DNA of 33,406 nt from Planctomycetales bacterium (lineage in GTDB: Bacteria > Planctomycetota > Planctomycetia > Pirellulales > Pirellulaceae). The position numbers and the translations under genes are program-made. Below the pieces are notes generated by a model. It was given only the letters and a program-made list of their open reading frames with translations. It was not told where the DNA came from and searched no databases. Below, one piece after another: positions 8,819 to 33,406 of the stretch; the stretch's first letter is position 1, and every line of letters begins with the position of its first letter. The stretch covers positions 1 to 33,406 of the forward strand of contig JAGQPD010000133.1 in assembly GCA_020426865.1 (NCBI GenBank), in the 5' to 3' direction.

Positions 8819-10087
8819 TCAATCGGCTGGCGGCGCAAGAGGGGACAAGATCAAGCGTCGAAATCTGGCGTTCAACCAGTCGGCGTGATCGCCTTGATCT
8901 CCCCAATCGGCAGGGTCCACCACCAGCGCCAAGCGTTTTGTCTTGTCCAATTCTACGACAATCGCCTGTGGGTTCCTATGGCCCCGGACAACCGAACTGG
9001 CCACGGCCTCGCGCCATTGGTCATCGGCGCCCTGCAACAGCACGCGAAACACGACGCTCCCCAATCCATCGCTCGAATCATCAATCGCGATCTCCGCGGC
9101 GAACTGCCGGGCATCGGGTGGGACATCGTAGATCAGGCGGGATGCGGAGTGCACGCTTATCCCTTTGAAGTAGCGATATCCGTTAGCTCGCAACGAATGA
9201 TGCTCCAGATTTTGGTCCAGCACGGTAGGCCATTGATCTTCCAGGAAGGGGATGTGCCGGGCGCTCGCTACGGACAAGTCTGACAGGAACACCCATTCGC
9301 GGCGGCAAGGCTGCAAAAAGGCCAGCGGATGAGAAGCGATGTTTTCCAGTGACGTTTCGAACTTCAATCCCGCTGTCGTGAGCACTCGCAATTCACTTTC
9401 ATCCATATGTAGCGACGCGGCATGAATGACATCTCCATTTCGCAATCCAACCAATCCCCGACACTGTTCCGTCGCCACGGCCGGCGCCTCGCGATGCCAG
9501 AGGACACCGATAACGCTTGCAAGATCAAGTCGTACTCGGCGCTCTCCTTCCAACAATTCGACGTGGTCGGTCGCGATTTTCGTGACAAGCCCCTCGATCA
9601 GATCGCCATTTTGGAGCATGACGACATCGTCAATTGTGGCGTGATCCGTTAACTGGCGCCACCACGTTTCGCGCTGCTCGATTGACGCCGCCGATGCCAG
9701 CACAATACCCGCCACGTGCTGCATAGGAACAACAACTTGTCCCCATAATTCACTTTCTACGGTAGCTCGACCGGCGGCGATCTGCGCCTGGCGACATATC
9801 AACTCGGTATGGTCCGTCAGGAATAAACAAACGCCTTGTCGCACTTCGACCGGGCAGCCCCATAACAGCACTTCACTCGCGTCAAACGCATTGCGTCGCG
9901 ACTCGGTAACCGAAATCTTCCAATCGTCATCGATGGCAAGAATGTCGCGTATGTCCCCCATTCCCGCACCGATGGTTGTCGTCATCCTGCGAGAATCGTC
10001 CTGAGCGCGAACGAAAGCCACTAACATCGTGACAACGGCGAGAGCAACGATTCCGCTACGCCACATAAATGACCTTCTGGCGAACAT
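8819..10087 (-). CDS. Exported NPCBM-domain protein
   Basis: A 422-residue exported protein. Start ATG at 10087 shares one base with the stop of the upstream toroid gene (TGATG), indicating translational coupling. It begins 'MFARRSFMWRSGIVALAVV...' with a signal peptide ending near 'VRAQ'. The middle (about 30-270) is beta-rich, with repeated 'LQNGDLIEGLVTKI' and 'LRNGDVIHAASLHM' strand pairs. The C-terminal ~140 residues match the NPCBM/NEW2 module: 'FLSDLSVASARHIPF', 'GYRYFKGISVHSASRLIYD', 'IDDSSDGLGSVVFRVLLQG', 'ALVVDPADWGDQGDHADW'. NPCBM modules bind glycans in known enzymes, so this is probably an envelope or extracellular glycan-binding protein. No catalytic domain was recognised. A farther upstream in-frame start would run into the toroid gene and lose the signal peptide. 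Confidence 0.83.
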   Translation of the reverse strand: MFARRSFMWRSGIVALAVVTMLVAFVRAQDDSRRMTTTIGAGMGDIRDILAIDDDWKISVTESRRNAFDASEVLLWGCPVEVRQGVCLFLTDHTELICRQAQIAAGRATVESELWGQVVVPMQHVAGIVLASAASIEQRETWWRQLTDHATIDDVVMLQNGDLIEGLVTKIATDHVELLEGERRVRLDLASVIGVLWHREAPAVATEQCRGLVGLRNGDVIHAASLHMDESELRVLTTAGLKFETSLENIASHPLAFLQPCRREWVFLSDLSVASARHIPFLEDQWPTVLDQNLEHHSLRANGYRYFKGISVHSASRLIYDVPPDARQFAAEIAIDDSSDGLGSVVFRVLLQGADDQWREAVASSVVRGHRNPQAIVVELDKTKRLALVVDPADWGDQGDHADWLNARFRRLILSPLAPPAD

Positions 10088-11205
10088 CAGCGCTGAAATA
10101 TCGGCAGATAGTTGTTCGGCATATGCAGCGTGATCACAGCCATAGCCGTGGCGTAATCGGGGCTGGTCGGATCCATCCAACTCCCGTCGCTCTTTTGAGT
10201 CTGCAGCAACACGTTGACAATTGCCGGATACCACTGATTCCAGTGCTCGCCACCGGCCTGCCACATTGCCTGTGCCGCATAGTACTGACCATAAAAGAAA
10301 TGGCCCTCGCGATTGACGCCGTTCGGATCAGGCCGGAACTGGCTCAAGTACCGGAGGCCTTTCGTGATCTCATCACCGTGATAGATACCAGCACTGTACA
10401 AGGCCACCACCCCGGCGGCGGAACGTGGAAACGCACTCGGCCCCCCTTGCAGCATGTACATGAATCCGCCATCGGCATTCTGGCTGCGTTTGACGTATTC
10501 GATGCAACGATCGATCGTATCGGAGGGAACAAAAATACCGGCATTCCGGGCCGCGCGCAGCGCCATCACCTGACAGATCGTCACAGAGATGTCAGCATCT
10601 CGCCGTTGTGGCTGATACCGCCACCCACCTTCATCATTTTGAGTATCGACGATCAACCGAACTGCGGCGGCAAGCTTTTCGCGGAGATCCGGCCGGGGGG
10701 ACATGCCATACGCCTCGGCCAAAAAGAGGCAGGCAAAGCCATGACCGTACATCGGACCATGACTACTCGACTCCGCCTCGTTAATGAATCCACTCTCGTG
10801 AACGTTGTCCAACACAAATGATAGACAACGCTCTACCGAATCGCCGTAGGGCCCTCGACCCGGCGTGCTGCCGTTGGACATGAACGCCATGCCTACCAGC
10901 GAACAAACACCAACGTTACGACTGTAAGTACCAGACCCAAACGAACCGTCCTCGTTCTGCCTGGCCCGCAGGTACTCCAAAGCATGATGGATTGCTTCTT
11001 TCGTCGACGGATTCATCCCAACGACGCCATCGTCACCCTGCATTCCCAATGCCGATCGAAACCACAACATCGAGACGATCGCCATCAGGAGCACCGCGAA
11101 CCACGGCTGCCGCTCCATCACAACAACTCTGTTCATAACGACCTTGCCGGTGACCACCGCGTTGCTCATCTCCGGCCTCCCGATTAACGTGCCAAGTTGG
11201 TTCAT
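10087..11205 (-). CDS. Exported squalene-cyclase/prenyltransferase-repeat (alpha-alpha toroid) protein
   Basis: A 372-residue protein with repeated toroid motifs: 'ALEYLRARQNEDGSFG', 'LIVDTQNDEGGWRYQP', 'CIEYVKRSQNADGGFMYM' and 'VLLQTQKSDGSWMDP'. These Q-x-x-D/E-G-S/G-F/W units are the QW-like repeats of the squalene/oxidosqualene cyclase and prenyltransferase fold. The DxDD acid motif of true squalene-hopene cyclases is not seen, so terpene cyclisation is unlikely. The N-terminus has a hydrophobic segment (about 34-52) after a long charged stretch; an internal ATG at 11136 would give a more typical signal peptide. The ATG at 11205 overlaps the upstream stop in ATGA, which favours the longer form. 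Such toroid proteins are common next to MoxR/VWA operons of planctomycetes; the function is unknown. Confidence 0.82.
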   Translation of the reverse strand: MNQLGTLIGRPEMSNAVVTGKVVMNRVVVMERQPWFAVLLMAIVSMLWFRSALGMQGDDGVVGMNPSTKEAIHHALEYLRARQNEDGSFGSGTYSRNVGVCSLVGMAFMSNGSTPGRGPYGDSVERCLSFVLDNVHESGFINEAESSSHGPMYGHGFACLFLAEAYGMSPRPDLREKLAAAVRLIVDTQNDEGGWRYQPQRRDADISVTICQVMALRAARNAGIFVPSDTIDRCIEYVKRSQNADGGFMYMLQGGPSAFPRSAAGVVALYSAGIYHGDEITKGLRYLSQFRPDPNGVNREGHFFYGQYYAAQAMWQAGGEHWNQWYPAIVNVLLQTQKSDGSWMDPTSPDYATAMAVITLHMPNNYLPIFQR

Positions 11206-11831
11206 GGGATCCCATCATCTCCATGTTGCTGTTCCGATGCAAGACGGCGAAAGTAATCTTCGATGACTTGTTGATATTCGGGCAGAAAATGATCCACCGG
11301 TATCTCGAGCAACGACATTCTCAGTTGTTCGGGCAACTCACCCCAACTCCGCCGCACGTTTTCCACAACCGGCGGAGGTGCCCGGTCGACGATCAATTCC
11401 GTCGGACCGGTGGCATCAACGGCGGTGGCAGGCGTAGTGCCCGGCGTTCCCGATGCTTTCTTTCCTGGCTCCGCTCGGTCCTCCTTCGAGGGCGAACTTG
11501 CCACACTCCCCGCCCCCGCCGACTCGCTTGGTCTTAAGCCCCCAGGCAATGGTTGCCCACTCTCGCGACTGCTACGCAGCAACTTTTCCAATTCGCGCTC
11601 GACCAATTGTTGCTTCTCGATTGCATCCCGGATGTCGGAGTCCGAACGCAACAGTTGTTCCGCTGCGTACATTTCCCGAGTAATACGCGTCCATGAACGG
11701 CGATCGTCCGCTTGGGACGTCTCCTCCGCGGACACTCGCCCAAGTGCCATACAACCGCTCAGTAGAGCGAGGCACATTTTCGTGCAATTACCTCGGCGCA
11801 ACACGTTGCGATGACGTCGTCTGGGCATCAT
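11202..11831 (-). CDS. Exported small protein of unknown function, coupled to the operon
   Basis: A 209-residue protein with an Arg-rich start and a hydrophobic segment (about 18-36) resembling a signal peptide. A Cys inside it (SGC) could alternatively indicate a lipoprotein. Residues 45-90 are helical and charged, 90-145 are low-complexity Ser/Pro/Gly linker, and the C-terminal 45 residues carry a compact segment: 'WGELPEQLRMSLLEIP', 'FLPEYQQVIEDYFRRLA'. I recall similar W-G-x-L-P...Y-x-x-x-I-x-x-Y-F/Y-R endings in small planctomycete proteins from comparable operons. It overlaps both neighbours by ATGA junctions, so production is coupled to the large membrane protein upstream. No enzymatic motif is seen. 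Confidence 0.75.
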   Translation of the reverse strand: MMPRRRHRNVLRRGNCTKMCLALLSGCMALGRVSAEETSQADDRRSWTRITREMYAAEQLLRSDSDIRDAIEKQQLVERELEKLLRSSRESGQPLPGGLRPSESAGAGSVASSPSKEDRAEPGKKASGTPGTTPATAVDATGPTELIVDRAPPPVVENVRRSWGELPEQLRMSLLEIPVDHFLPEYQQVIEDYFRRLASEQQHGDDGIP

Positions 11832-14800
11832 TTGCGACCCTCCCGCTCGACTCGTACGTTGGCTGGTGTATCCCGAACATCGACATGCGTCTCAGCATCG
11901 GTTTCGTCCCGCAAGTCCTCCGGAGCGTTCTCCAACGCTTCATCCAGGGACCGATCAAGTGCCTGGGCCGACATTTCGTCCGTGGCACGGGTTGCATCAC
12001 TTTTGTCCAATGGCTCGTCCAGACTTCCTTCGGTCGAAATCGCCCCGCCGCGCTGCTGCGTCACATCGTCGCGAGTTTCGAACAACATCTGTAGCATACT
12101 GGCCAATTCGCGTTGGATTTGTGCCAGTTCATTTCGCTCTCGCAGTGCTTCAGACGACGCGCTGTCATCGGCGTGCGTTCGCTGCCAACGCATCGTGCGA
12201 TGTCGCAGATGACTCTGTAGATTCACAACTAGTCTCAGCTCAGACTCAGCCCCGGCCCCGCCAGGTGGCGGAGCCTCACGAGATGAGAAAGCCCTTTGTT
12301 CCCCTCTTTCCGCGGACGTCAAGCCTTCCAACCCATCCACGGGCGCGAGCGAATGCTGCAACATCTCCAGTTGATCCGCCGCCTCAAGCAACGGTTCTTG
12401 CGCAAGAGGCCCCGTATCGAAACTCGCCAATCGTACTGCGGCAGATTCCATGTTCAACTGGGCATGGCTTAGTGTCCACATCCGTACTGGCAGCGCTTGC
12501 ACGATTGGCATCAAGCGTTCGACTTCACGGATCAGTGCTCGCTGTTGAACAACCAATTGCTCAATGCTCGCGATTTGAACGGACGTTGCCCCACCCCCAT
12601 TCGCAGTTCTTTCCGCTTCGACATTTACCGCTGTCTCGTAGATTCGCCTTTGCCGCTCGGCCATACCCTCGATCAAACGCAGATCATCGACTCGCGGGAC
12701 AAGTGTTCGTCTTGCGTCGTCCGGTCTTGCAACAGCGTCGATGAGGTCGTGCAGCGCCTGCACCGCCGCCAATTGATCGCGAACGGCCTCGTTCAGTTGA
12801 TTCTGTTCTGCATGTGCACCTGCGTCACGCATTTGACTGGAAATACCTAGGCTCTCCGCAAGCCGCACCGCGTTGTCCACATGTTGCCGACTCCCATCAC
12901 GGGCGAAATCCGATCGCTGCACGTTTTGACACAGATTCGCCATTACTCGATCATAGTGCCGCGCGAGCTCCTTTTGATCTTCTACAATCTGGCTCAGCTC
13001 ATTGCGTTCCGACTCGGCCAGGTCGCGTACACGTTTGCTCGTCGTCTTCCCGCATAAGATCCTGGTGGTTTCGGCGAGCTCCTCTTGTCGCGACTTCAAG
13101 TCGTACAATTCTCGCCCAATCTGCCGGAACCCTTCCCAATGGGCCAGGTCGCCGAGTAGCTGTTCCATACTGGCGATGATGTTCCATTGCGTCGCTGTGG
13201 CATCGACCAGAAATCCAATGACGTCTGCGGTATCGTCTGCGGTATCGGCGTTGGCACTTGTCCCAGCAACTTGCTCCGTCTTGCGGGATGTCGGCGGCAC
13301 GAATGCCGCGACTCCCTCAGCGCCCTTGATCGCATTGAGCAACTGCGACTCGGCGACAGCAAATTCATCAGCAAGTGTCGTTGTCAGTTGTTGTGCCACC
13401 CGCGACACTTCCCCATGCAGATTGCCGGTATCGATGCGACTTTGCTGCATTTCGATCGCCAGACCGTGAAGCTTGCTGACGGCAGACTCCTCACCGACGG
13501 TCAACACTTCGCGGACGTGTCGCTGCTGCTGCTCGATCGATTGAAGTTGATCAATGACCTGTCGATCCACATGGCTGGTCCGATCGGTCGATTGCCAACC
13601 ATCGAGTGCTGCCTTCGTGTCATTCAATGTCCGCTTCTGCTGCCGAAGCGTGTCGGCTACCTGCGACATGATTAGCGATTGACGCTGGCTGTATCGAGCA
13701 AGCAATTCTTCTGGCGACACGACATGCAATCGACGCAAGATCGACGAGCCTTCCTGTCCCTTGCAATCGCGAACGGCGGCAACAACAAACAACGTCACTC
13801 CAGCATCAACATCTGCATAGGAGGACAGATCGAAGGGGGTTTCAAATTCAACGACTTCCCGCACCAGTAACGACGCAACTCCTACTCGCGAAGGCGCCAC
13901 GCCGTCGGCAGTTTCTAACAGTGTCCCGCCTGCCAATTCGACCGTCACATTGTACACGTCGACGTCCCGTCCGACGCGCAATTCAATTGACGTCACACAA
14001 ATGTCATCAGTGGCCGACCCTTGAAACACGACGACGGACGACGGCGCCACCCACATATCGGGCTGTGGATGCGTGAAGTCGACTGTCGGAATTTGGTCCT
14101 CGACAATATTGATATGGTATTTCGTCGGAAACGTCTCACTGAGACCATGAACGTCATGCAAGATCCAACCGTACACACCCGATAACTCCATGCGCCAACC
14201 GCCGGCTACGTCGGCGGGAAACTGAAATCGCTCACGCCGATCTCCATCGATCGTCCCATCTGCGATCACGGTATCCGAACCAGATTGGATCTGCAGCTGA
14301 ACCTTTGCCAAGTCTCGATTGGCAATTCCGGAAGCACGCAACGCTGATCCGGCAAGAACCTGCATTCGGGGCTGTACCGGAGTTGGCCGAAGTCCGGTGT
14401 ATTCCGGTGGGACGACTTCGAACTGCAGCTTGTCAAGTCTCAGGGGCGGAAACAAACGCAAATTCCGCCATTCCATCTGCTGATCATCACCAGCCACGGC
14501 GCGATAACGAACCTCATCCGTAACATTAGCAAGGCGAAACCGCGCCTTCCCGTGATCGACAATCATCGGCCGTCGCTGCAGTACCGGACTTTGATTCTGG
14601 CGACTTTGATTCTGGCCAGTCTCTTCGTAGAGCAGTTCGACACGATCGGGAAGCGTCCCTTCGGCTGCCGATACGACGAACTCGACCTCGGCACCAACGG
14701 CTGCCAAAGTGGGTGCCTGATCGAATTGCAGGGAAACGGTTTGAGGCCAAGTGACATTCGCCCACGGCATTAGCAATCGCGTCACCCCAGCCCTTACATG

Positions 14801-15316
14801 TCGTGGATACAAGGCGGCAACTGTCAGGAAGATTACGACAGCGGCGGTCGCGAGAACCTTCAAACGCATACCGCTCTCGTAGTGAATTACGTCGCGAGGC
14901 TCGAAGCTGGCAACCGCCTTTTCGGCAGTTGCAACGACGGAATCGCTGAGGGCCCGCGAGCTACCGGTATCGGACGAGCTCGACAGATCTCGAAAAGCAA
15001 CGCCGCTGGAGATCAGACTTTCAAGCTGCGGATAATGTTGGTCGATATGCTGTGCCACTGTTACGTCTGACCATGCGTCACGAGGCAAATTCCTTGCCGA
15101 CCGGCGCCAGGAAATGGCCGCACACACGAGCACGGAGGCGGCGGCAAGCGCGCGGATTCTCCAGTCTTGCCAGCGAAACAGATAGTCAACAAAGATCGCC
15201 AGCCCGGCAATCAGCAGCGCCACACAGCCGCCTCGAATGGCAAGTCGCGTGTACCACTCGCGCTGGGCAAGCCGCCGCACGGCGTTCAGATAAACTGTCA
15301 GCGGGTCCTCGGACAT
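11828..15316 (-). CDS. DUF4175-like large membrane protein with Ig-like and coiled-coil regions
   Basis: A 1162-residue membrane protein. Hydrophobic segments lie at about 25-46, 54-69 and 153-172, an arrangement like DUF4175 proteins. About 180-530 is beta-rich, with 'RVELLYEETG', 'EVVPPEYTGLRPTPVQPRM' and 'SIELRVGRDVDVY', as expected for Ig-like domains outside the membrane. About 540-1080 is strongly helical with long coiled-coil-like stretches rich in Q, L, E and R. The last ~80 residues are acidic. It follows the VWA/amidotransferase-like gene by 16 bases and overlaps the next gene in ATGA. Two exact in-frame duplications lie in it (14587-14616 and 13223-13246). Its place beside MoxR, DUF58 and two VWA proteins suggests a periplasmic scaffold or client of this module; function is not established. 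Confidence 0.8.
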   Translation of the reverse strand: MSEDPLTVYLNAVRRLAQREWYTRLAIRGGCVALLIAGLAIFVDYLFRWQDWRIRALAAASVLVCAAISWRRSARNLPRDAWSDVTVAQHIDQHYPQLESLISSGVAFRDLSSSSDTGSSRALSDSVVATAEKAVASFEPRDVIHYESGMRLKVLATAAVVIFLTVAALYPRHVRAGVTRLLMPWANVTWPQTVSLQFDQAPTLAAVGAEVEFVVSAAEGTLPDRVELLYEETGQNQSRQNQSPVLQRRPMIVDHGKARFRLANVTDEVRYRAVAGDDQQMEWRNLRLFPPLRLDKLQFEVVPPEYTGLRPTPVQPRMQVLAGSALRASGIANRDLAKVQLQIQSGSDTVIADGTIDGDRRERFQFPADVAGGWRMELSGVYGWILHDVHGLSETFPTKYHINIVEDQIPTVDFTHPQPDMWVAPSSVVVFQGSATDDICVTSIELRVGRDVDVYNVTVELAGGTLLETADGVAPSRVGVASLLVREVVEFETPFDLSSYADVDAGVTLFVVAAVRDCKGQEGSSILRRLHVVSPEELLARYSQRQSLIMSQVADTLRQQKRTLNDTKAALDGWQSTDRTSHVDRQVIDQLQSIEQQQRHVREVLTVGEESAVSKLHGLAIEMQQSRIDTGNLHGEVSRVAQQLTTTLADEFAVAESQLLNAIKGAEGVAAFVPPTSRKTEQVAGTSANADTADDTADVIGFLVDATATQWNIIASMEQLLGDLAHWEGFRQIGRELYDLKSRQEELAETTRILCGKTTSKRVRDLAESERNELSQIVEDQKELARHYDRVMANLCQNVQRSDFARDGSRQHVDNAVRLAESLGISSQMRDAGAHAEQNQLNEAVRDQLAAVQALHDLIDAVARPDDARRTLVPRVDDLRLIEGMAERQRRIYETAVNVEAERTANGGGATSVQIASIEQLVVQQRALIREVERLMPIVQALPVRMWTLSHAQLNMESAAVRLASFDTGPLAQEPLLEAADQLEMLQHSLAPVDGLEGLTSAERGEQRAFSSREAPPPGGAGAESELRLVVNLQSHLRHRTMRWQRTHADDSASSEALRERNELAQIQRELASMLQMLFETRDDVTQQRGGAISTEGSLDEPLDKSDATRATDEMSAQALDRSLDEALENAPEDLRDETDAETHVDVRDTPANVRVEREGRK
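13223..13246 (-). repeat. Exact 12-bp tandem duplication inside the DUF4175-like gene
   Basis: GTCTGCGGTATC occurs twice without a gap (13223-13234, 13235-13246). In the gene it adds four residues in frame, seen as the doubled DTAD in 'DTADDTADV'. Confidence 0.9.
14587..14616 (-). repeat. Exact 15-bp tandem duplication inside the DUF4175-like gene
   Basis: GACTTTGATTCTGGC occurs twice without a gap (14587-14601, 14602-14616). It is in frame and gives the doubled QNQSR in the Ig-like region. The perfect match suggests a recent event. Confidence 0.92.
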
Positions 15317-15332: not shown

Positions 15333-17681
15333 TCAAGCCAAACCCCATCGTTTTCTCAGAATCCACTCGCAGGACAGGGACGCCATGAACAAGGCTGCCA
15401 CCAACGACGAATTCCAAATGGGCCGTGATGGCAACGCCTCAACGCGAAGTTGCGAACCCAACGGAAGTTCGTGCAACATCTGTTCCACGTCCTGCATTCT
15501 ATAGTATTTTCCCCGAGAAATCTCCGCGGCCGCTCGCATCGCCTTTTCGTCCAGATCAACTCCCGTCAGCTCCGTATCAGGCGGAATGACTTCGAAGTCG
15601 CAGGCGGGGATCTTGTCCGCCACTTGGGGCGCCGCCAGCCGCGCATGGTAGCGCCCCGGTAACAACTGCGGAATCTCAACGAGAAAGAAACCGCGCAGTC
15701 CTGTCCAACGATGCAGCTGGACGGAACGATCCTGCCCACCCTCGCCCCCGATGATCACACTCACTTCGTCGTCGTGCTCGGGCGCGGTTCGCTCGTCCAG
15801 AAATCGAACGCTCAAAGTCACCGCGTCGCCAAACCGGTACTGTTCTCGCTCTGCCTGCAGTCGGATCCCCCCAGCGTCCGTCATCTTCGGGCGACCGAGG
15901 AAGCGAATGGTCTGCATCCAGTATCGGACATACGCCTGTTCGTTGGCCGTGAACTGCCATCGCCAAAGATCGTCGGACGTGTGCATGACTACATTGCCAG
16001 GACCAACGTAACTGTGACAGATCAACGGCACCGCGAAGCCACTGGAACTGGTTCGATCGGCTGCCTCGACAAGCACATGCGTGCCCGGCAACGGCTCCGC
16101 ATCGGGGACGCCCCAGTATGGACTCCATGCCCGCCACAGCTCCAGATTCCGTTTCTGCTCCATCGCCACACGCACGAAGGGCGAATGATCTCCCACATGC
16201 GAAAGTCGCACGTTCATCCCGATGCTCAAGTCCCCCGTCGACGAATTGCCAGCGGTTTCCCCCAATCGCAATGGTAACAACTCAGCCAACGGTGTGTCGC
16301 GATAGGCTTGTGGATTGTACCGTTGACCGGCAATCAACAGCGCGCCACCACCGTGTTCACGAACGAATCGGACAATGTTCTCCATGGCTACCGGGCCGAG
16401 AAACTCGGGGGCCACATCACCCAGAATGATCACGTCATATTCAAGAAGTGCCTCCCATCGAGTCGGGAAGACGCGTTGGGCGTTGTTGTCGATGTCCACA
16501 TACTCGGCGTCTGCTTCCTGCAAGATGGTAGTCAGCTCGCAGATCGACTGCGGCTCGCCCTCACTCCCAACAGCCCCTCGCCCCAAGACGTTTTTCAGGT
16601 ACCGAAATTCATAGCTCGGATACGTTTGCACCAAAAGGACACGTAAAACACTGTCGCGAACGTCCACCCGAACGACCTTTTCGTTGTTGCCGGAATCCGT
16701 CTCGCCAGCCAGCCCCTGGACGTTCACGGTCAGTTCGTGAAGGCCGGTCGTTACCGGACGCCACATCAGCGATTCCTGTTGAGCGACACCGTCGGTGGCA
16801 ATCGTAATCGGTCGTTCGTCCAGTACCTTGCCTGACGTATCACTCAACGTGAGCGTTGTCGTGTCACCGGAACAAGCCGAAGAGGTCAGCGTAACTTCCA
16901 CGGGAACGACGTCGTGGACATAGGCGACATCGTCAACAATTACGTCTCGCAATCGGATGTCGCGAGTGGATCGCTCCTGCCCGACCCCTACCAGAAACAA
17001 GGCAATGTCACGTCCTCGAGCGTCATCGCCCGACGACTCTAGCGTCGCCCCTTCCGTATTCACGCCGTCCGTAAACACAACAATCGCCGCTGTCGGACGC
17101 CCGCGCTGCTGCTCAAGGATCTCTCGTACTCGGATTCCAAGTGGACTGCGAGAATAATTCGCGCCGTGGTCGGCAATCTGCCGCGTCAGCTCGCCAAAAT
17201 CAACTCCCTGACTGTCGAATCCTCCTCCACTGAGAAACCGTACTCGCAGTTGGTAATTGCCGATCAATTTCGTCAGGATCGTTGCCTGGTCGACCAAAAG
17301 CCAATCGGTGACTCGATGAAAGCGATCCCTTTCAACACGATCATTCGCTTTGCTCTCATCTAATTCGGAGCGTCCGTCTAGCGGATGTGCGTCCGTTGCT
17401 GACATACTGGCGGAGTCATCAATGAGCAGTACCAGGTCGGACGGACTTGTTCGATACGGCCGAAGAACAAATCCATACATCATCACAAATACTAAAAACA
17501 ACGCGACAAACCGCAGGGAAAGCAGTGCCAGGTGCCGCCATGCTGGCTGCTCGGGGGAGCGACGACTGAAGCGGTAATACATCAGTACGACGATGCCAAT
17601 TGCCAACAACAGGGTCAGCCACGATGGCAAGGGCCAGTCATGTTCCAAACGCATCTCGAACGCTTGTCGTTGGCCGTTCAC
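15333..17681 (-). CDS. VWA and glutamine-amidotransferase-like membrane protein
   Basis: A 782-residue envelope protein. Transmembrane segments lie at about 20-38, 50-73 and near the C-terminus (763-778). The VWA domain begins at 'LVLLIDDSASMS', whose D88-x-S90-x-S92 is the MIDAS metal motif. A beta-sandwich region at about 240-340 (CARDB-like) is followed by a class I glutamine-amidotransferase-like fold (about 345-470; 'VLRVLLVQTYPSYEFRYL', 'YDVIILGDV', 'REHGGGALLIAG'), probably without catalysis. The start is GTG at 17681: GGAGG (complement of 17688-17692) is 6 bases ahead, and the GTGA overlap couples it to the BatA-type gene. An ATG nine codons in is the alternative. This architecture accompanies MoxR-DUF58-BatA operons in planctomycetes. 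Confidence 0.87.
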   Translation of the reverse strand: MNGQRQAFEMRLEHDWPLPSWLTLLLAIGIVVLMYYRFSRRSPEQPAWRHLALLSLRFVALFLVFVMMYGFVLRPYRTSPSDLVLLIDDSASMSATDAHPLDGRSELDESKANDRVERDRFHRVTDWLLVDQATILTKLIGNYQLRVRFLSGGGFDSQGVDFGELTRQIADHGANYSRSPLGIRVREILEQQRGRPTAAIVVFTDGVNTEGATLESSGDDARGRDIALFLVGVGQERSTRDIRLRDVIVDDVAYVHDVVPVEVTLTSSACSGDTTTLTLSDTSGKVLDERPITIATDGVAQQESLMWRPVTTGLHELTVNVQGLAGETDSGNNEKVVRVDVRDSVLRVLLVQTYPSYEFRYLKNVLGRGAVGSEGEPQSICELTTILQEADAEYVDIDNNAQRVFPTRWEALLEYDVIILGDVAPEFLGPVAMENIVRFVREHGGGALLIAGQRYNPQAYRDTPLAELLPLRLGETAGNSSTGDLSIGMNVRLSHVGDHSPFVRVAMEQKRNLELWRAWSPYWGVPDAEPLPGTHVLVEAADRTSSSGFAVPLICHSYVGPGNVVMHTSDDLWRWQFTANEQAYVRYWMQTIRFLGRPKMTDAGGIRLQAEREQYRFGDAVTLSVRFLDERTAPEHDDEVSVIIGGEGGQDRSVQLHRWTGLRGFFLVEIPQLLPGRYHARLAAPQVADKIPACDFEVIPPDTELTGVDLDEKAMRAAAEISRGKYYRMQDVEQMLHELPLGSQLRVEALPSRPIWNSSLVAALFMASLSCEWILRKRWGLA

Positions 17682-30716: not shown

Positions 30717-30935
30717 CACTCTTCACACACCTAGTATTCAAGCCGCCGGAGGCACCAGGGAACCACTTTGAACGTCAGCCAGCACATTCGGTATGGCTGG
30801 CATCATCGATCCGGTTCGGAGGATCGGATTGATCCGGAAGATGTCAACCGACTCCAACGCACGCCCAGCTCATGAGGTAGGCTTTGTATTGTATGGCCCG
30901 ACCCCCTGTTCTGCACCCCTTCTCTGATTTTGCCG

Positions 30936-33406
30936 ATGAACTCGACAATGATCAAATCGCTGCGCTCGTGGCTTGCCTGGGGAGCCGATACCGTGGAACG
31001 GACAGGCATCTTGAATGCCGCTTCCCACCCTAGGCTTGCCGAAAGTATCTCGCGCGGTCGAGCGGACGGTGGTATCGACGTGACCCAACTGGAGGAACGC
31101 GTCCTCTGCAGCGCCACACCGCTGATGATCGACGTGCCAATACCAACCCCCGAAAACGCCGCCGGCGTACACGCCCCGTCCCTATCGTCAATCGCCGACA
31201 TTACCATCGCTGAAGACACGGCCACTCCGTCCTTGCTCTTCACCATCACCGACGCTGACACTCCATTGTCGGAACTCATCGTATCGGTTCACTCGTCGGA
31301 TACGACCTTGATCCCACTGGAAAACATCAGTATCGAAGGAACCGGCGCTGAGCGAACAATCCTCATTCGCCCAGCCGACGACCGCTACGGTGGTCCTACG
31401 GCGATCGAAATCCATGTCAGCGACGGCGTGCACACCACCGTCGAAGCGTTCAACGTCACTGTCACTCCCGTCAACGACGCGCCCACCACCACTGGTTTCC
31501 TCGACATCAGTGTCACGGAAGATTCGCCAGCAACGGTGATCGACCTGTTCTCGGCGTTTGACGATCTTGAAGATGCCGACAGCCAGTTAACGTACTCGGT
31601 AACACACAATTCCAATCCGGGTCTGTTTTCGTCGGTCCTGATCGATCAGCAGCACGGAACATTGACACTGACCTACGCGGCCAATGTCAGTGGTACCGCT
31701 GAGTTAACGTTGCGTGCTACGGACAGCAACGGAGCCTACGTGGAACGGACTACCGCGGGAGCCGGCGTCCCTGTCTACTATCGTTTCATTGGCACCGTGG
31801 GAGTCGACTACCCCGATTTCAATGCGATGGGCATGAAACCTCTGACGTATGTCAGCTACTTTGCCATGTTCGACAACGTCAACGGCAGCTACGACTTCAG
31901 CCATATCGACGAGGCGCAGCTCACCTGGGCAATGCAACAGTATTTCGCCGATGTCGACCCGACCGTTCCGGTCACGTTCAACATCGAGCTACCCGAATAC
32001 GAGAATACGCCGACCGGTCGCGACAACCTGGCACATGTGATGAACATTGCCAACGCCGTACGTCCCGACCTGCCGCTGATGGGATTTTATCGACTGATGC
32101 CGGAACGCAACTGGTGGAACCCGCTCAATTATGACCACCTGCAAAAGGACCTGGCGGCGGGGGTCACCAGTTGGTACACCAATCACGCCACTGAATTCAC
32201 GGACGCCTATAACAGTTGGCTGGCCAGAAACGAAGAATATCGCACTGTTCCACTCTCTGATTCGGTTGGTGGCGGAGTGCTAGGTGACCGCGTCGGCTCG
32301 ATACAACCATCGCTCTACACCTTCTATCGCAGCTTCAATCATCGGACGAACGAGAGGTCGTCGGTCAGCTTCAATGGAACCACCGACACGATCACCAGCG
32401 TGGCGGCGTTTGCCAACGGCGATGCCATTCGCTTCCATACGACCGCGTTGCCTCGGGGACTGGAAATCAGTAACACCTATTACGTCGTCAATTCCACTGG
32501 CACCTCGTTCCAATTGGCATTCCAACCCAATGGTACGGCGATCAACTTCGCCACCGGAACCTATAGCGGCAACAGTATCTATTTGGAGTTGCCATTCGCG
32601 GAAGACCCGGACACTGCAGCATGGGATATCTACGCAGAGTACAACATCGCCGAGGCGCGCAAGTTTGGCAAGCCGGTCTATTCCTGGTTGGCTCCCAGTT
32701 TTCGGGGAGCGGGTGTGGAGTATCTTGAAGAAGAGTTTTTCCTCCAGCAACTGCGGACATCCGCTTCCCTTTCGGATGGCATCATTCTTTGGGACCCCTC
32801 GATTCGTACGGAGAATCTGCACGCCAGCCATGGCTGGTATCGAGCCCTGAAGACATTCCTCGCGGAAAACTACAGTGCCAGCACAACGTTCACCGTGACC
32901 GTCGATACGGTCAATGATCCGCCAGTCGCTCACGGCATTGCCGACGTAAACGTCAACGAAGACGCACCGAACACAGTCTTGAACCTGTCATCGATGTTCT
33001 CCGACGCTGACGATCCGCAGGGACTCACCTACACCATCAGCACGGTCACTAATCCAGCAATCTTTTCTTCCGTTTCTTTCCATCAGGCGACCAAACAGCT
33101 GACCCTCGACTATGCCCCCAATGCCTTTGGCCAATCCGCCATCACGGTGCGGGCGATCGATCCCTCAGGTGCCACCGCGACATCGACGTTTCATGTCAAC
33201 GTCCAGTCGGTGCCGGACCGCCCGACCGCCACTTCGATTCCCGACCTGAACGTCGTTGAAGGCTCGACACCGCGTGTCGTGAATTTGGCTCCCTATTTTT
33301 CCGATATTGACAGCTTGCCTGCCCACCGTTCGTATAGCATCACCGGCAACTCGGCCCCCTCTCTATTCTCCTCGTTGAACCTGAATCCCGTCTCTGGCGA
33401 GTTGGT
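30936..33406 (+). CDS. Giant secreted LEPR-XLL/cadherin-like repeat protein with embedded enzyme-like domain (3' end outside window)
   Basis: The frame is open from 30876 (in-frame TGA at 30873) to the window end, giving at least 823 residues. ATG 30936 or 30948 is the likely start; no clear ribosome-binding site is seen. Residues 51-63, QLEERVLCSATPL, match the N-terminal signature of large planctomycete exported proteins (LEPR-XLL type). Cadherin-like repeats follow: about 84-182, ending 'VTVTPVNDAPT'; about 183-270; about 663-760; and from about 765 onward. The second repeat lacks its last strand at the expected place. 'LRATDSNGAYVE' is followed by about 378 other residues (271-648) before 'STTFTVTVDTVNDPP' completes it. 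The inserted part looks like a TIM-barrel enzyme domain ('PVTFNIELPEY', 'PLMGFYRLMPERNWW', 'KFGKPVYSWLAPSF', 'LSDGIILWD'), interrupted at about 473-549 by a small beta-rich unit. A surface adhesin or polysaccharide-acting protein is the best inference. Confidence 0.8.
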   Translation, partial: MNSTMIKSLRSWLAWGADTVERTGILNAASHPRLAESISRGRADGGIDVTQLEERVLCSATPLMIDVPIPTPENAAGVHAPSLSSIADITIAEDTATPSLLFTITDADTPLSELIVSVHSSDTTLIPLENISIEGTGAERTILIRPADDRYGGPTAIEIHVSDGVHTTVEAFNVTVTPVNDAPTTTGFLDISVTEDSPATVIDLFSAFDDLEDADSQLTYSVTHNSNPGLFSSVLIDQQHGTLTLTYAANVSGTAELTLRATDSNGAYVERTTAGAGVPVYYRFIGTVGVDYPDFNAMGMKPLTYVSYFAMFDNVNGSYDFSHIDEAQLTWAMQQYFADVDPTVPVTFNIELPEYENTPTGRDNLAHVMNIANAVRPDLPLMGFYRLMPERNWWNPLNYDHLQKDLAAGVTSWYTNHATEFTDAYNSWLARNEEYRTVPLSDSVGGGVLGDRVGSIQPSLYTFYRSFNHRTNERSSVSFNGTTDTITSVAAFANGDAIRFHTTALPRGLEISNTYYVVNSTGTSFQLAFQPNGTAINFATGTYSGNSIYLELPFAEDPDTAAWDIYAEYNIAEARKFGKPVYSWLAPSFRGAGVEYLEEEFFLQQLRTSASLSDGIILWDPSIRTENLHASHGWYRALKTFLAENYSASTTFTVTVDTVNDPPVAHGIADVNVNEDAPNTVLNLSSMFSDADDPQGLTYTISTVTNPAIFSSVSFHQATKQLTLDYAPNAFGQSAITVRAIDPSGATATSTFHVNVQSVPDRPTATSIPDLNVVEGSTPRVVNLAPYFSDIDSLPAHRSYSITGNSAPSLFSSLNLNPVSGEL

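Follow-up and report, generated by a model that had tools for sequence, protein, structure and literature searches.

A distant relative of GH56 hyaluronidases nested within a cadherin-like repeat of a planctomycete protein

The stretch of DNA analysed here (the window) comprises 33,406 nucleotides of contig JAGQPD010000133.1 (C43) from assembly GCA_020426865.1, a metagenome-type bin (7.5 Mb, 1,341 contigs, 78% complete) of a Planctomycetales bacterium. Near its right end, an open reading frame (ORF) that stays open on the plus strand from near 30936 to the end of the window, its 3' end being lost at the contig end, encodes a protein of cadherin-like repeats. All Pfam and NCBIfam matches in this ORF are to repeats of the cadherin-like, Big_9 and tandem-95 types (PF17892, PF17803, PF17963, NF012211). 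The second repeat is interrupted by an insert that appears to be a distant relative of glycoside hydrolase family 56 (GH56) hyaluronidases. An earlier note, made from the sequence alone, had placed an enzyme-like insertion at 31746-32879 of a "giant" protein. The position was correct to about one codon; the term "giant" is not supported, as complete relatives of the repeat protein are about 1,150-1,460 residues long and the window ORF is cut at the contig end. The features of the gene are as follows.

30936-33404, plus strand: repeat-protein gene, with an ATG start at 30936 or 30948 (TTG at 30930 is the mechanical ORF start)
31086-31124, plus strand: N-terminal motif QLEERVLCSATPL, from sequence comparison among carriers of the nesting
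31173-31472, plus strand: cadherin-like repeat 1, uninterrupted, limits approximate (family and repeat-profile matches)
31473-31745, plus strand: cadherin-like repeat 2, pre-insert part with strands A to F (residues 182-272; profiles and AlphaFold)
31746-32882, plus strand: insert, residues 273-651 (profiles, AlphaFold, fold search)
31767-32876, plus strand: GH56-like domain proper, residues 280-649 (profiles, AlphaFold, fold search)
31980-31988, plus strand: N351-I-E353, corresponding to Asp111-x-Glu113 of bee venom hyaluronidase, with Glu353 as presumed proton donor
32088-32090, plus strand: Tyr387 (GFY), corresponding to Tyr184 of bee venom hyaluronidase
32316-32318, plus strand: Tyr463 (PSLY), corresponding to Tyr227 of bee venom hyaluronidase
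32325-32600, plus strand: inner insert, a phage-tail-related beta domain of about 85 residues, limits approximate (alignment, fold, sequence matches)
32790-32792, plus strand: Trp621 (IILW), corresponding to Trp301 of bee venom hyaluronidase
32883-32906, plus strand: TTFTVTVD, residues 652-659 (strand TTFTVTV, 652-658), last strand G of repeat 2
32910-33220, plus strand: cadherin-like repeat 3, uninterrupted, limits approximate (family, profile, AlphaFold)
33221-33404, plus strand: start of repeat 4, cut at the contig end (repeat profile)

Repeat 2 breaks off after residue 272 (GAYVE), and its last strand, TTFTVTV, comes 379 residues later. The break was examined with a repeat profile of 71 positions, derived from 32 uninterrupted repeats of the same protein family with the host repeats excluded. 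The pre-insert part of the window repeat scores 44.9 bits and matches this profile to position 54 only; with the true 14 post-insert residues attached, it scores 61.6 bits and matches as far as position 71. In all five host repeats studied (those of the window protein, L002, L043, L044 and L048), the pre-insert match ends at position 54-55, and the true post-insert 14-mer carries it to position 66-71. Among the 14-mers of the insert itself, none of 366 in the window protein equalled the score of the true one (1/366, 0/369, 0/368 and 1/368 in the other four hosts). Across the whole window protein, just two other 14-mers do so, one at the final strand of repeat 1 and one at that of repeat 3. Rejoining also improved the match to the NCBIfam tandem-95 model, from 23.2 to 40.7 bits for the window repeat and from 15.2 to 20.3 bits for that of a paralogue; as a control, an uninterrupted repeat scored 30.3 bits when whole and 13.7 bits when truncated at the corresponding position. 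The short Pfam repeat models change little in score between the pre-insert part and the rejoined repeat, so the case for rejoining rests on the two longer profiles. Removal of the insert in silico leaves flanks that together give one complete repeat.

The AlphaFold model of repeat 2, insert and repeat 3 (predicted local distance difference test, pLDDT, 78.7; predicted template modelling score, pTM, 0.58) is consistent with this picture. With strand letters assigned by us on the AlphaFold strand list, repeat 3 contains the full series A A' B C E F G. Repeat 2 runs A A' B C E F, followed by a short strand and the insert, beyond which a strand at TTFTVTV takes the place of G. A Foldseek search with this repeat-containing model matched both hyaluronidases and cadherin EC domains. 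It is very likely that the insert sits between strands F and G, the last two of cadherin-like repeat 2.

The same break was seen in a paralogue and in four other genomes. The paralogue (L002, on contig C592 of the same genome) has the same layout and an insert 59% identical to that of the window; the other carriers belong to genomes of the same family (L006/L043, L007/L044, L008/L048 and the split L009+L015, corresponding to L045+L046), with insert identities to the window of 32-37%. In the carriers, the last residues ahead of the break are GAYVE, GLSVG or GLTTG, and the repeat continues some 380 residues further on with a strand such as TTFTVTV, ALKVTV, MLTIDI, EFRISV or TLKVDF. Two of the carrier genes are complete, in contigs of 203,723 and 169,813 bases from independent assemblies. 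No account of such nesting was found in the open-licence literature searched.

Taken alone, the insert is predicted by AlphaFold to form a compact domain (pLDDT 88.6, pTM 0.79). It matched no Pfam or NCBIfam family, the Pfam GH56 model (PF01630) included, and single-sequence searches with it in Pfam and the PDB gave nothing usable; matches to NTF2, at E about 0.7, are due to chance. Nor was GH56 found in the PDB with a profile of the carriers only or with that of a further alignment (A5). The relationship was revealed through free forms of the domain, the path to which leads from the carriers to a shorter relative lacking the inner insert (L013) and a third homologue of the window's own genome (L038), and then to free or terminal domains of other planctomycetes and two from one alphaproteobacterial bin. 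A bridge profile was made from 13 free homologues (L052, L053, L064, L066, L054, L055, L068, L056, L031, L038, L022 and both L047 proteins). The carriers' profile matched it along the entire domain (99.9%, E 4.7e-34), and the free-form profile in turn matched four GH56 structures in the PDB, those of bee venom hyaluronidase (9.7e-10), wasp hyaluronidase (8.8e-4), PH-20 (3.3e-3) and HYAL1 (0.022), and no other glycoside hydrolase family. The profile link of the insert to solved GH56 enzymes runs through this 13-sequence bridge only. PF01630 itself matched four of the free homologues with E from 1.9e-4 to 0.023. In a fold search with the model of the insert, the five best PDB matches were all GH56 hyaluronidases, with a probability of 1.00; GH5 enzymes, GH18-like chitinases and pyruvate kinase occupied lower ranks. 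It is very likely that the insert has a GH56-like fold. A PF01630 search of the relatives' genomes gave no match, which is not evidence of absence, as the control matched nowhere either. By tblastn, the barrel was found in no phage record, and among plasmids only a weak Burkholderia match was obtained.

Residue correspondences were counted along the PDB alignment of the free-form profile with bee venom hyaluronidase. By this count, the window keeps four of the five GH56 active-site residues, namely Glu, both Tyr and Trp, with Asn in place of Asp. The correspondence of N-I-E to Asp111-x-Glu113 lies in a weak alignment fragment, yet its order and place are right. In wasp hyaluronidase, the equivalent residues are Asp107, Glu109, Tyr180, Tyr223 and Trp296 (PMC6892566). 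The Glu and the Tyr of PSLY are invariant in all sequences that cover them, and the GxY Tyr is kept in all carriers. The position of Asp is taken by Asn in L013. In the alphaproteobacterial bin, two free GH56-like genes are adjacent (L047, 4480-5502 and 5503-6606, plus strand), one encoding Asp-Ile-Glu and the other Asn-Ile-Glu; their neighbours resemble 2-oxoglutarate dehydrogenase and succinyl-CoA synthetase genes.

The barrel is itself interrupted. An inner beta domain of about 85 residues follows the PSLY strand in all carriers covering this region and in none of the free forms. Its sequence aligns with Rhizobium and Sinorhizobium phage tail proteins (best E 7e-5). Structures of phage tail spikes, tail fibres and baseplates match the domain model over about 86 residues, presumably those of the inner domain. 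PHROG tail families match relatives of the inner domain, and the window copy itself weakly. Such relatives also stand alone in planctomycete ORFs (L011, L012, L018-L030, L032), many of them of 7,000-11,900 codons; in one genome (G387), five were found within one ORF. The architecture consists of three nested layers: a phage-tail-type beta domain in a GH56-like barrel in a cadherin-like repeat. The earlier note had proposed an insertion between the last two strands, a barrel-type enzyme-like domain and an inner insertion within it. The first is borne out by repeat-profile completion, tandem-95 rejoining and AlphaFold strand order, the second by AlphaFold, the profile bridge and the fold search, and the third by profile and model evidence. 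A repeat already complete before the insert and an insert that is not compact were both looked for, and neither was found.

In a maximum-likelihood tree of the barrel, from which mostly-gap columns corresponding to the inner insert had been removed, all six carriers fall into a single clade (support 100). The closest relative of this clade is L013 (support 100), a protein without either nesting. A single capture retained since then is the simplest account.

The genome of the window encodes a third GH56-like protein, on contig C663 (L038; L050, 3572-6040, minus strand). It is a free form with the motif DIEHW, and discoidin-like and Calx-beta domains follow its barrel. Nearby lie CpsB/CapC, a transglutaminase-like gene and one for a Wzz/ParA-type protein, which may together make up an exopolysaccharide locus. 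Since this free homologue adjoins polysaccharide genes of the CpsB/CapC and Wzz types, the target of the GH56-like group may be bacterial exopolysaccharide and not animal glycans, a hint taken from one locus. More distant domains with D-x-E and PxxY were found in other planctomycetes (L057, L059-L063) and perhaps represent further branches of the barrel family.

The best explanation of these findings, to which we assign a probability of roughly 0.6, is that the insert is a bacterial GH56-like glycan-acting domain, both ends of which are held between strands F and G of one cadherin-like repeat in a rod of repeats. The repeats suggest a location at the cell surface or in the matrix, and the protein is probably secreted or surface-bound. 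The N-terminal motif QLEERVLCSATPL has similar forms (LEDRVLYSAVPM, LEDRTLFSTTPL, LESRTLFSGTPL) near the N-terminus of all carriers but the paralogue, which has LEARMVLSG at this place; judging by sequence, it probably serves for export or sorting in planctomycetes. A domain tied at both ends between F and G has no freedom to swing, and the two links would fix its distance, place and angle on the rod, its cleft facing outward. The two conserved Tyr and the Trp would make contact with a glycan chain lying in this cleft, Glu353 would act as the proton donor in hydrolysis, and the phage-tail-type domain after the PSLY strand could serve as a substrate-binding lid. As Asn replaces the conserved Asp, a substrate or rate unlike that of true hyaluronidases would be expected.

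Several observations weigh against this explanation. The PF01630 matches of the free homologues all lie under the curated cut-off of 23.2 bits (the best scored 20.9), and the TM-scores of the insert model to GH56 structures are low (0.39-0.51). The catalytic Asp-x-Glu pair is Asn-Ile-Glu in five of the six carriers, the window included, and the Trp is replaced by Tyr or Phe in four of the six. No classical signal peptide or anchor was recognised in the repeat protein on inspection by eye. A double mutant of wasp hyaluronidase with Asp changed to Asn and Glu to Gln is inactive (PMC6892566). Because the Pfam scores stay below the cut-off and the Asp is absent, classification of the insert as a GH56 member is not warranted, even though it may function in the manner of one.

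The same substitutions would fit a former hyaluronidase-like enzyme that now serves only as a glycan-binding head, the change of Asp to Asn having ended or nearly ended catalysis. The Asp is present in 11 of the 13 free homologues, and the setting within a repeat rod also agrees with a binding function. However, the Glu and both Tyr persist in every carrier covering them, and a proton donor would be needless for a mere binder; besides, one carrier (L009) retains Asp-Ile-Glu, and the second L047 protein likewise has Asn next to its Asp-type twin. We regard the loss of catalysis as possible, if rather doubtful. The same single Asp-to-Asn change leaves PH-20 with a few per cent of its activity. 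Catalysis by the insert is possible, not assured, and the chance of activity seems somewhat better than even. Of the idea of a catalytic domain displayed from an adhesin repeat, the enzyme-like barrel is retained; a role in adhesion is unsupported, and actual catalysis is only putative, with Asn for the conserved Asp.

An ordinary tandem arrangement, with repeat 2 complete before the insert and TTFTVTV being just a linker, is improbable. AlphaFold does place a three-residue strand right before the insert (model residues 98-100), and the short Pfam models score the pre-insert part nearly like the rejoined repeat, but the halt of the profile match at 54-55 of 71 in five host repeats, its completion by the post-insert stretch alone, the tandem-95 gain on rejoining and the strand count of repeat 3 all speak for a split repeat. 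Still less credible is another barrel family (GH5, GH18-like or unrelated) that resembles GH56 through a shared triosephosphate isomerase (TIM)-type fold: GH5 and chitinase structures do occur lower in the fold search, but GH56 enzymes head it, the profile matches are confined to GH56 among glycoside hydrolase families, and the active-site residues stand in the right order. An assembly or binning artefact fusing an enzyme gene with a repeat gene, conceivable in so fragmented and incomplete a bin, is refuted, and chance likewise, because the paralogue on a second contig and the related genomes share the break, the carriers stem from independent assemblies and two of the genes are complete in long contigs.

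The glycan-acting domain on a rod of repeats can also be placed in a fuller history. A hitherto undescribed bacterial branch of the GH56 superfamily would have included a clade that was captured once by a cadherin-repeat protein of planctomycetes, gained a phage-tail beta domain as substrate lid, shifted with the Asp-to-Asn change to a new glycan or chemistry and became a rod-mounted surface enzyme. This scenario is tentative and, as a whole, rather unlikely.

Elsewhere in the window, a run of minus-strand genes contains a 1,162-residue ORF without a Pfam match (11828-15316) and a VWA-type protein (15333-17681), and a minus-strand gene at 8819-10264 encodes a C-terminal carbohydrate-binding-type domain (NPCBM/NEW2).

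GH56 hyaluronidases are regarded as animal and venom enzymes. Characterised microbial hyaluronidases were placed in other families by recent reviews (PMC11669647; PMC12254123). A bacterial GH56-like branch that has no Pfam or NCBIfam model is relevant to the origin of the animal enzymes and is a source of putative glycan-acting proteins. The insert is a distant GH56 relative in an unusual place, and its nesting is old and conserved. The persistence of the triple nesting over large divergence means that a cadherin-type sandwich can accommodate a whole enzyme-type domain between its last two strands, and such a natural F-G insertion is useful to protein engineers.

Compared with the GH56 hyaluronidases (1fcq/1fcu, Ves v 2 2atm, HYAL1 2pe4, PH-20 9jub; PF01630), the insert is alike in its predicted barrel fold and has the proton-donor Glu, the two Tyr and the Trp in equivalent positions; it differs in being bacterial, in Asn for Asp, in its standing below the Pfam cut-off, in the inner beta domain and in being lodged in a cadherin-like repeat. 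The free bacterial homologues (the 13 and the nearest, L013), which match no Pfam or NCBIfam family above cut-off, share the same domain over its whole length, but they lack the inner beta domain, do not lie inside a repeat and mostly have Asp-x-Glu. The inner insert resembles beta domains of phage tail spikes, fibres and baseplates in sequence and fold, and is found here inside an enzyme-type barrel. Pyruvate kinase has a beta-barrel B domain inserted in its TIM barrel; with weak Foldseek matches and without sequence relation to the insert, it offers an analogy only. As for the cadherin-like, Big_9 and tandem-95 repeats, repeats 1-3 of the window protein match them, the host repeat when rejoined; unlike ordinary repeats of this kind, the host repeat has 379 residues lodged between its last two strands.
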